From: Delftia sp. PS-11
Lineage (GTDB): Bacteria; Pseudomonadota; Gammaproteobacteria; Burkholderiales; Burkholderiaceae_C
Direction of reading: 5' to 3'
Length of the DNA: 64,000 nt
NCBI RefSeq assembly: GCF_029870285.1
Contig: NZ_JACSYA010000026.1
Coordinates: forward strand, 10,843 to 74,842
This document shows positions 44,082 through 45,908 of the stretch, piece by piece. The notes under the pieces were generated by a model, which saw only the letters and a list, made by a program, of their open reading frames with translations, was not told the origin of the DNA and searched no databases. A program made the translations under genes and the position numbers. How positions within the stretch are numbered: position 1 is the stretch's first letter; the number at the start of each line of letters is the position of its first letter.

Positions 44082-44666
44082 TCATGCATGCTCGAAATGA
44101 AAGACCGCCGTGCCCGCGCGCAGGTTCGGCAGCGTGCGCACCACCTGCCCGTCCTGCAGGCCGAAGGCGTCCAGGATGCGCAGCCGGTTCCTGGTGGCCA
44201 GCACCTCGAAGTCCTTGTAGGTGCCCACGCGGATATTGGGCGTGTCATACCACTGGTAGGGCAAGCGGCGCGTGACAGGCATGCGCCCGCGCAGCACCGA
44301 CAGGCGGTTGGGCCAGTGCGCGAAATTGGGAAAGGCGACGATGCCGGCGCGGCCGATGCGTGCCGTCTCCTGCAGCATGGTTTCGGCATTGCGCAGATGC
44401 TGCAGCGTGTCGATCTGCAGCACCACATCAAAACTGTTATCGCGGAAGATGGCCAGCCCGTCCTCCAGATTCAGCTGCAGCACGTTGACGCCCCTGCGTA
44501 CGCAGGCCAGCACATTGGCATCGTCCAGCTCCACGCCATAGCCCGTACAGCCGCGCTCGCGCTGCAGCAGCGACAGCAGGGCGCCGTCGCCACAGCCCAG
44601 GTCGAGCACGCGCGAGCCTTGGGGAATCAGGCGCGCAATCGCCTGCATGGTGTTGAGCTCGGTCAT
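44082..44666 (-). CDS. metW: MetW, methionine biosynthesis methyltransferase-like protein
   Basis: 194-residue SAM-dependent methyltransferase fold protein ([20 protein letters not shown]; then [12 protein letters not shown]) found almost always directly downstream of metX in proteobacteria and thought to be required for, or to activate, MetX. It begins with a four-base overlap on the metX stop (44663-44666), so the two are translationally coupled. No classical methyl-acceptor activity is established. Confidence 0.94.
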
Positions 44667-45811
44667 GCGGCCTCCTTGGCGGCGGTCTGGGTTTCCTGGG
44701 CGATGCCGTCGAAGTAAGAGCGCATCACACTCATGTAGCGGGGGTCGTCGAGCAGGAAGGCGTCATGCCCGTGGGGCGCGTCGATTTCGGCATAACTGAC
44801 ATCGCGGTTGTTCTCCAGCAGCGACTTGACGATCTCGCGGCTGCGCGCGGGGGCAAAGCGCCAGTCGGTGGTGAAGCTCACCAGCAGATACCGGGCCCGG
44901 GCCACGGACAGCGCCTGAGTCAGGTCGCCGCCATGGGCGCGCGCCGGGTCGAAGTAGTCGAGCGCGCGCGTGATCAGCAGATAGGTGTTGGCGTCGAAAT
45001 AGCTGCTGAACTTCTCGCCCTGGTAGCGCAGATAGCTCTCGATCTGGAACTCCACGTCCTGCGTGCTGTACTTGAGATCTATCCCCTCGCGCAGCTGGCG
45101 GCCGAACTTCTGGTTCATCACATCGTCGCTGAGGTAGGTGATGTGGCCGATCATGCGCGCGATGCGCAGGCCACGCGCAGGCACCACGCCATGCGCGTAG
45201 AAATGGCCGCCGTGAAAGTCCGGGTCGGTGACGATGGCCCGGCGCGCCACTTCGTTGAAGGCGATGTTCTCGGCATTGAGATTGGGAGCGCTGGCCACGA
45301 CGACGGCATGGCGCATGCGCTGCGGGTGGCGCAGCGACCAGGACAGTGCCTGCATGCCGCCCAGGCTGCCGCCCAGCACGGCGGCCAGCTGCGCAATGCC
45401 CAGCCGGTCCAGCAGCCGGGCCTGGGCATCGACCCAGTCTTCCACGGTGACCACGGGAAAATCGGCGCCATAGACCCTGCCGGTGTCGGGATGCAGGTGC
45501 ATGGGGCCCGTGGAGCCAAAACACGAGCCCAGGTTGTTGATGCCGATCACGAAGAACCTGTTCGTGTCCACCGGCTTGCCGGGGCCGATCATGTTGTCCC
45601 ACCAGCCCTCGCTCTTGGGCTGGCCTTCGTAGACGCCGGCTACATGGTGCGAGGCATTGAGCGCATGGCAGACCAGCACGGCATTGCTGCGGTCGGCGTT
45701 GAGCTGGCCGTAGGTCTCGTAGGCGAGGTCGTAGTCGCGGATCGAGCCGCCGCCCTGCAGCGGCAGCGGCTCGTCGAAGTGCATGGATTGTGGTGTGGCG
45801 ATGAAGGACAT
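44663..45811 (-). CDS. metX: Homoserine O-acyltransferase MetX
   Basis: First committed step of methionine synthesis: acylation of homoserine. The ATG at 45811 gives 382 aa ([20 protein letters not shown]). Alpha/beta-hydrolase features are [20 protein letters not shown], the nucleophile elbow [15 protein letters not shown] (Ser), and the C-terminal His in [12 protein letters not shown]. MetX proteins next to metW in proteobacteria have been shown to be succinyltransferases in several cases, so acetyl versus succinyl specificity is open. It is preceded by an intrinsic terminator and a SAM-II-like riboswitch, which indicates repression by SAM. Five extra in-frame codons upstream (from 45826) lie inside the terminator and are not favoured. 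Confidence 0.95.
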
Positions 45812-45812
45812 G

Positions 45813-45847
45813 AAAAAACCCGGCATCGCTAAAAACGAGGCCGGGTT
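45813..45847 (-). terminator. Intrinsic terminator in the metX leader (riboswitch expression platform)
   Basis: On the minus strand AACCCGGC and GCCGGGTT form a perfect 8-bp stem with a 15-base loop, followed by TTTTC directly before the metX ATG. The loop contains TTTAGC, which is exactly complementary to the conserved GCTAAA of the SAM-II aptamer just upstream. So an alternative antiterminator pairing is available. Confidence 0.8.
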
Positions 45848-45854
45848 CTCAGGT

Positions 45855-45908
45855 GTCGTCTTTAGCTGGATTTATAAAGCGCCCGCAAGCAGAAGCAAAT
45901 CGGCGCGT
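45855..45908 (-). promoter_or_regulatory. SAM-II (SAM-alpha, metA-type) riboswitch upstream of metX
   Basis: Read on the minus strand the element has, in order: P1 5' strand GCGCC (complement of 45902-45906), immediately GATTTG (45896-45901), a short pyrimidine-rich loop, GCTTGC, then P1 3' strand GGCGC (45879-45883), a 12-base AT-rich linker TTTATAAATCCA, and GCTAAAG (45860-45866). The order GAUUUG - GCUUGC - P1 - 12-base linker - GCUAAA is the SAM-II consensus as I know it, and P1 pairs perfectly. A terminator follows, then metX. P2 pseudoknot pairs are less obvious by eye. SAM-II elements are known mostly from Alphaproteobacteria. Confidence 0.85.

Follow-up and report, generated by a model that had tools for sequence, protein, structure and literature searches.

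The metX leader of Delftia sp. PS-11, about 100 bases on the minus strand of the 64,000-nucleotide stretch of DNA analyzed here (the window), is conserved and comprises a SAM-II core (45906-45856) followed by an 8-bp terminator-like hairpin and a U run. We predict from this arrangement, with a probability of roughly three in four, that the leader acts as a transcriptional OFF switch responsive to SAM, with the aptamer pseudoknot's 3' strand as its likely lever. Judged by its core sequence and structure, the element is a real and well-conserved regulatory RNA of the SAM-II class. A SAM-II-type aptamer and a terminator before metX had been proposed from the letters of the window (the original prediction), and the sequence supports this proposal; the positions given for GCGCC, GATTTG, GCTTGC, GGCGC, the linker, GCTAAAG, and the terminator arms are all correct on the minus strand. 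The 8-bp stem is likewise present, and the U run reaches the metX ATG (45811-45809) except for a single C. The features, each with its basis, are as follows.

45925-45917 (-): putative extended -10 element TGGCATAAT, sharing bases with the stop codon at which the upstream GDT1-family gene ends (45920-45918); sequence
45906-45902 (-): P1 5' strand GCGCC, pairing with 45883-45879; sequence, Rfam alignment
45901-45896 (-): GATTTG, predicted third strand of the SAM pocket; sequence, role from SAM-II and SAM-V structures (PMC6061858)
45895-45891 (-): CTTCT, short L1, with a P2a remnant of at most 2 pairs; L1 length comparison among aptamers
45890-45885 (-): P2 5' strand GCTTGC; sequence, second peak of complementarity to the terminator
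45883-45879 (-): P1 3' strand GGCGC; sequence, Rfam alignment
45878-45867 (-): AT-rich 12-base linker TTTATAAATCCA; sequence
45866-45856 (-): P2 3' strand GCTAAAG (45866-45860) plus tail ACGA, which would double as the upstream antiterminator strand; sequence, identical letters in L019
45847-45840 (-): terminator 5' arm AACCCGGC; fold and stem finder
45838-45828 (-): TCGTTTTTAGC in the terminator apex, predicted partner of 45866-45856; complementarity, identical letters in L019
45824-45817 (-): terminator 3' arm GCCGGGTT, with the U run (six T) at 45818-45813; fold and stem finder
44663-45811 (-): metX, homoserine O-acyltransferase, the presumed regulated gene; NCBIfam MetX_succinyl, 660.8 bits (reading frame from 45826)
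44082-44666 (-): metW, overlapping the metX stop; TIGR02081, 235.9 bits, and PF07021

We take 45811 as the better metX start, since the in-frame ATG at 45826 is missing from L010-L015 (GCGTTGCC), L161, and L168; no clear Shine-Dalgarno sequence precedes the ATG at 45811. The metW gene is probably cotranscribed with metX. The upstream gene, a member of the GDT1 family (PF01169), is codirectional, its stop codon lies 11 bases before P1, and its transcript may also be ended by the metX terminator. An extended -10-like TTGG[CT]ATA[AG]T was found in 14 of 36 genus leaders and TACACTG in 15, with neither in the remaining 7; a sigma-70 scan returned no match to the proposed -10 region of the metX leader. 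Elsewhere in the window, subthreshold matches were recorded to the manganese riboswitch RF00080 before the GDT1-family cation exporter gene (46702-46521, minus strand; 33.2 versus 45 bits) and to AsdA (58688-58608, minus strand; 45.6 versus 52 bits).

Complementarity between the terminator and the pseudoknot

The predicted fold of the 107-base leader contains the terminator hairpin (whole fold, -37.4 kcal/mol; z, -3.07). A terminator scan tool reported nothing at the metX leader because it allows loops of 3 to 8 bases, and the loop here has 15. Our own finder looked for a stem-loop with a U run up to 170 bases downstream of the aptamer, and it was applied to two sets of leaders. The first comprised 148 of 149 loci (L026, of the metK type, was dropped; L146, which lacks its start, was kept; L022, the locus of the window itself, is identical in letters to L019, which stood in for it). 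A terminator was found in 109 of these leaders, mostly alpha-, beta-, and gammaproteobacterial records, and none was found by the same finder in the other 39; 85 distinct terminators were tested further. The second set started from 90 loci at the best-scoring listed places of an order-wide search with our model R1 (described below). The core pattern missed 5 of them, in all of which the core is visible, leaving 85 leaders; a terminator was present in 83, compared to 3 of 425 shuffled controls. Of the 76 distinct second-set sequences, 9 had already been seen, and 67 were tested.

Within the window, GCUAAAGACGA (45866-45856) is complementary to UCGUUUUUAGC (45838-45828) over 11 contiguous pairs, one of them G-U, a match equalled by 3 of 100,000 shuffles of the hairpin 5' arm plus loop. 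In all 36 genus leaders read, the P2 3' strand can form such a helix, with 9 pairs in 25 leaders and 11 pairs in the other 11. The original prediction had paired GCUAAA with UUUAGC in the terminator loop; the proposed antiterminator is indeed made by the P2 3' strand, but it extends to 11 pairs (one G-U) rather than 6.

To score complementarity across lineages, 9-base windows were slid along each leader, and their pairing to the terminator 5' arm plus loop was compared with shuffles. At GCTAAAG, the mean z was -1.99 (se, 0.18) for the 85 distinct leaders of the first set and -1.64 (se, 0.16) for the 67 new leaders of the second; at GCTTGC, the corresponding values were -1.01 (se, 0.10) and -1.53 (se, 0.10). 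The leaders are related, so that these statistics, like those that follow, are not independent draws. Windows touching neither GCTAAAG nor GCTTGC gave z values between +0.20 and -0.35. With no more than one G-U allowed, an exact 6-base match to the P2 3' strand was seen in 32/85 and 18/67 leaders, where shuffles predict 1.0 and 0.5, and one to the P2 5' strand in 13/85 and 23/67, where 3.1 and 2.8 are predicted. No 6-pair match to either strand was present in 45/85 and 32/67 leaders. Since both the complementarity peaks and the 6-base matches fall on the P2 strands, the terminator tends to carry what appears to be a decoy, directed at one pseudoknot strand in some lineages and at the other in others. 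In L003, L034, and L105, an extra hairpin, GAGAAATGAAGATTTCTC, lies directly 3' of GCTAAA, between the aptamer and the terminator, and the terminator loop contains GCAAGC, the complement of GCTTGC.

Covariation of the antiterminator had been suggested as a check. In the first set, the tail beyond CTAAA scored 76 versus a permutation value of 55.6 (2 of 5,000 permutations as high), and 65 versus 48.5 when 28 distinct pairs were considered (4 of 5,000). In the second set, the score was 18 versus 16.9, with 1,877 of 5,000 permutations as high. The signal thus appeared in the variable tail of the first set and was absent from the replication set, and we dropped the claim that the tail covaries generally.

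These pairings suggest how the switch could work. In the presence of SAM, GCUAAAG would be occupied by its P2 pairing with GCUUGC, so that the terminator would form before metX. In its absence, GCUAAAGACGA would pair with UCGUUUUUAGC once the latter leaves the polymerase, and the 11-pair helix, together with its 3-base link to the 3' arm, would delay closing of the terminator and allow read-through into metXW. By topology, the helix should exclude the terminator stem, because three bases would have to span it; SAM should have time to act first, because both P2 strands are transcribed before the decoy emerges. Antitermination would at the same time expose the metX start codon, which lies at the terminator end; the terminator, when formed, would hide the metX start region. 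We folded truncated transcripts of increasing length, modeling neither ligand nor pseudoknots. The antiterminator had a probability of 0.99 to 1.00 at lengths of 89 to 97, with P1 still formed; the terminator took over at length 101 (0.92) and reached ~0.99 at full length. As the full-length terminator wins without ligand, the ON state would have to be kinetic; kinetic-trap ON states occur in many transcriptional riboswitches.

A SAM-II-like aptamer could instead control metX through another pairing, such as one with GCUUGC, or mainly at the level of translation, with the hairpin hiding the start codon. Other lineages do match GCUUGC and not GCUAAAG (in the second set, 17/67 leaders matched the 5' strand only and 12/67 the 3' strand only), and the metX ATG lies closely 3' of the U run in all 36 genus leaders read. 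We nevertheless consider this arrangement unlikely, as every one of those 36 leaders also has the 9- or 11-pair match to the 3' strand, and hairpins with U runs recur in 83 of the 85 second-set leaders.

Class assignment and distribution of the aptamer

At Rfam gathering cutoffs, no family matched anywhere in the window. With permissive settings, RF00521 (SAM_alpha) aligned end to end (positions 1 to 79) at 27.1 bits, below its cutoff of 36, with an E value of 2e-4 when 251 bases were searched and 0.05 when the search covered the whole window, and GAUUUG, GCUUGC, and GCUAAAG were intact in the alignment. The Infernal check proposed with the original prediction therefore failed at the cutoff and yielded a full-length alignment beneath it. 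The window also shows the other features expected of SAM-II: P1 closing the GAUUU...GCUUGC loop, the GCUUGC/GCUAAAG pseudoknot letters with a bulged U, the GAUUU third strand, and metX downstream. Among 61 relatives searched (37 from the genus and 24 from other families), the RF00521 cutoff was passed by 2, both of other families, and by 0/37 genus members.

Because no genus member reached the cutoff, we built a model of our own, R1, from alignment A2 of 71 leaders, four of them from the genus. It scored the window at 65.3 bits (E value, 1.6e-15). Across the order, matches were obtained in 198 of 250 genomes, covering 99 of 120 genera, in a draw larger than and different from the 61 relatives. 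In the genus, R1 found one place per genome in 51 of 53 genomes and in 46/46 good assemblies, and GATTTG, GCTTGC, GCTAAA, and the terminator were present in all 36 genus leaders read, so that the blocks are kept in relatives, as had been anticipated. When the first 20 of the 30 best-scoring R1 loci were examined, 10 passed the RF00521 cutoff, from which it follows that the betaproteobacterial group is continuous with SAM-II; by sequence score, Comamonas-type leaders occupy the low end of a gradient that goes by the name SAM_alpha in Rfam. The label Comamonas is provisional and derives from locus L125 of Comamonas koreensis, which shares 94% identity over 3.1 kb with L013, a locus from a member of the same genus as the window's genome. 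Conservation of GATTTG, GCTTGCGGGCGC, and GCTAAAG is by construction in L031-L149, the matches listed from a search pattern that fixes these blocks, and most A2 rows were found with that pattern.

Several search results were set aside. Matches to RF00521 with E values of up to 10 were rejected as evidence, as 13 of 14 control genomes also match at that level; 20 places fetched from such matches comprised 12 metK elements by sequence and 8 lacking that motif, one of which (L190) is a metX-type leader missed by the search pattern. An earlier fetch of 20 places had given 18 metX-type leaders, L166 and L169 being the exceptions. An overlap of the leader with the small RNA Bp2_287 (16.6 versus 70 bits) was attributed to chance.

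P1 has 5 pairs in the window, and 93.9% of P1 cells are paired in A2. Of 144 distinct aptamers, 91 have a standard outer P1 pair, more than in any of 5,000 shuffles (mean, 59.0), and 77 have a Watson-Crick one (38.8 expected); two slid P1 pairings used as controls were null. The next position out is paired in 39/144 aptamers versus 47.6 by chance, so P1 ends at the outer pair, which in the window itself is an unpaired C/T. Covariation along the whole of P1 was rejected, since four of its six pairs never vary in A2 and one varies on one side. P2 is invariant in A2 and so shows no covariation either way, and GATTTG is also invariant there, being pattern-fixed for most rows; the near-invariance of P2 and most of P1 is due in part to the same fixed blocks. 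The covariation sought in P1 and P2 was thus obtained for the outermost P1 pair only, the rest hardly varying.

In the 31 distinct aptamers with GCTAAAGAC tails, which include the window's, L1 is always 5 bases long, compared to mostly 6 to 9 in the others. The best pairing of L1 to the tail (P2a) reaches 2 pairs in the window; its mean is 2.05 for this class and 2.80 and 2.83 for the other two large classes. Huang and Lilley (PMC6061858) give a P2a of 5 bp for 60% of SAM-II RNAs. We rejected an outright loss of P2a in the Comamonas-type class, where the pairing is short yet exceeds that obtained with swapped tails (1.64; sd, 0.10). The shortened aptamer, with its 5-base L1 and short P2a, accounts for the low RF00521 scores of Comamonas-type leaders. 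A separate class with a similar fold and a different ligand would fit the short L1, the weak P2a, and the failure of all 37 genus members at a cutoff passed by two relatives from other families, but it is very improbable given that the three ligand-binding blocks are unchanged, the genes are the same, and scores run continuously across the Rfam cutoff within one order.

Behind 207 collected GATTTG-type aptamers (184 distinct sequences, some places being repeated), crude clustering of the first open reading frame identified metX in 81 cases, metZ in 48, and metH in 13. A further cluster, first taken for metN, was left uncounted at 348.1 versus the MetN cutoff of 499.7. A reading in which the hairpin constitutively ends transcription of the GDT1-family gene and the leader, though conserved, is no ligand switch is barely credible: the 11-base distance from the upstream stop to P1 and the shared gene direction would suit it, but the full aptamer core is conserved order-wide before metX, metZ, and metH, among others, and complementarity to both pseudoknot strands is not expected of a plain terminator.

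A sister element before metK and tandem aptamers

A second SAM-II-like element, with GAGTTAA instead of GATTTG, precedes metK in the same genome (L150:2724-2793, minus strand; G000:C39:26766-26835). A model of this metK type, R2, matched one place each in 52 of 53 genus genomes, with the metK start read behind 16; its tally of 164/250 genomes of the order should not be read as the number of metK elements, because cross-matches to metX-type places are included. Across 35 distinct GAGUUA-type sequences, not all of them before metK, P1 covaries, with both sides changing in 5 of its 7 pairs, and P2 is invariant. The metK Shine-Dalgarno region has a complement (CUCC) in the leader ~16 bases 3' of the first base of GCUAAA (mean z over 25 metK leaders, -1.92; se, 0.29), which makes the metK element look translational. 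By our own mapping, the SAM-V counterpart of its changed base would be U8, a weak pairing partner of U47, the anchor on the adenine side (PMC6061858). The metK gene of betaproteobacteria was described as lying outside the known methionine regulators (Leyn 2014, PMC4239095), a gap in metK regulation that the sister element addresses.

A second GATTTAA- or GAGTTAA-type aptamer was observed downstream of the SAM-II element in L049, L086, L100, L111, L121, L126, L195, and L066, mostly within ~150 bases and ~0.7 kb away in L066; Halomonas, Aquitalea, Dechloromonas, and Accumulibacter are among the organisms in this group. Tandem SAM-II aptamers are known, with 44 cases reported (PMC9481103). In L227-L231, L002, and L202, the second tandem aptamers are followed, 384 to 527 bases downstream, by a gene for a MATE-family exporter (TIGR00797, matched in the representative L087), which is a candidate target of these tandems. 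A SAH riboswitch (RF01057; L236:144-221, minus strand; 61.5 bits) was found 1.3 kb from the metK SAM-II-like element at the same locus.

Comparison with known systems

The metX leader shares with SAM-II (RF00521) P1, the pseudoknot P2 with its bulged U, GAUUU, GCUUGC/GCUAAA, the methionine genes, and frequent terminators; it differs in its 5-base L1, its P2a of at most 2 pairs, and its score of 27.1 against a cutoff of 36. In the portions of the literature on which our comparisons draw, SAM-II was placed in alphaproteobacteria with few examples in other lineages, many with putative terminators (Corbino 2005, PMC1273637), and was later listed as most common in Alpha-, Beta-, and Gammaproteobacteria (Meyer 2009, PMC2704228). 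Examples with terminators in betaproteobacteria had already been reported in 2007, at a time when the mechanism of control was said to await experimental proof (Barrick 2007, PMC2258182). Novelty of the element in betaproteobacteria is refuted by Barrick 2007, Meyer 2009, and Leyn 2014, and the original prediction's view that a transcriptional SAM-II switch in Comamonadaceae would be notable was overtaken by the 2007 report. Most of the claimed novelty is gone, the finding being largely anticipated in print.

Leyn 2014 (PMC4239095) describes a metXZ element before metXW in 30 of 35 genomes (10 of 11 Comamonadaceae) and before metZ in Methylophilales and Nitrosospira, with a pseudoknot and a downstream terminator. 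Region 2 of this element pairs with region 6, region 3 has no partner, and regions 3 and 4 are proposed to act in antitermination; the element is called novel, and SAM_alpha is given as found only in Rhizobiales and Rhodobacterales. Compared by description and not by letters, it resembles our leader in its location before metX in Comamonadaceae and in its pseudoknot and terminator, and SAM-II cores occur before metZ here as well (L032, L103, and L044). The metXZ element of 2014 is probably the SAM-II leader described here. No statement of this identity was found in the available portions of the open-licence literature, including those of Leyn 2014 and Weinberg 2010 (PMC2864571).

What is new, then, is the probable identity of metXZ with SAM-II, the antiterminator strand, the shortened aptamer, and the GAGUUA-type sister element before metK. 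If metXZ is SAM-II, a published RNA element without a class becomes a known riboswitch; RF00521 reaches its cutoff in 2 of 61 relatives, and the retrained R1 matches 198 of 250 genomes of the order in its different, larger draw. The proposed antiterminator is specific and mutable. A joint reading is conceivable, and we put it forward tentatively, as something we would not expect to hold in full. Under it, metXZ would be SAM-II with strand theft as a general expression platform, in which the terminator 5' half mimics either pseudoknot strand and so can pair with its partner, making the ligand-binding helix itself the lever; L1 and P2a would have shrunk in the Comamonas group, with the P2a strand recruited into the antiterminator; and a GAGUUA subclass with one changed pocket base would stand before metK, with an anti-Shine-Dalgarno sequence instead of a terminator. 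If this were true, a single RNA fold would control two steps: termination would regulate homoserine activation, and translational control with a retuned pocket would regulate SAM synthesis.

The predicted transcriptional OFF switch has a close counterpart in the SAM-II riboswitch of Sinorhizobium meliloti metZ, which is likewise predicted to be a transcriptional OFF switch and gives a short terminated RNA (Scheuer 2022, PMC9373788); that system is alphaproteobacterial and has expression data, whereas the metX leader is known from sequence alone. For the S. meliloti metA riboswitch, the same authors were unable to predict a SAM-II-driven antiterminator. SAM-V and the tandem SAM-II/SAM-V arrangement have a nearly superimposable pocket and a short P2a (PMC6061858), but SAM-V acts on translation, whereas the metX leader has a terminator after its aptamer.
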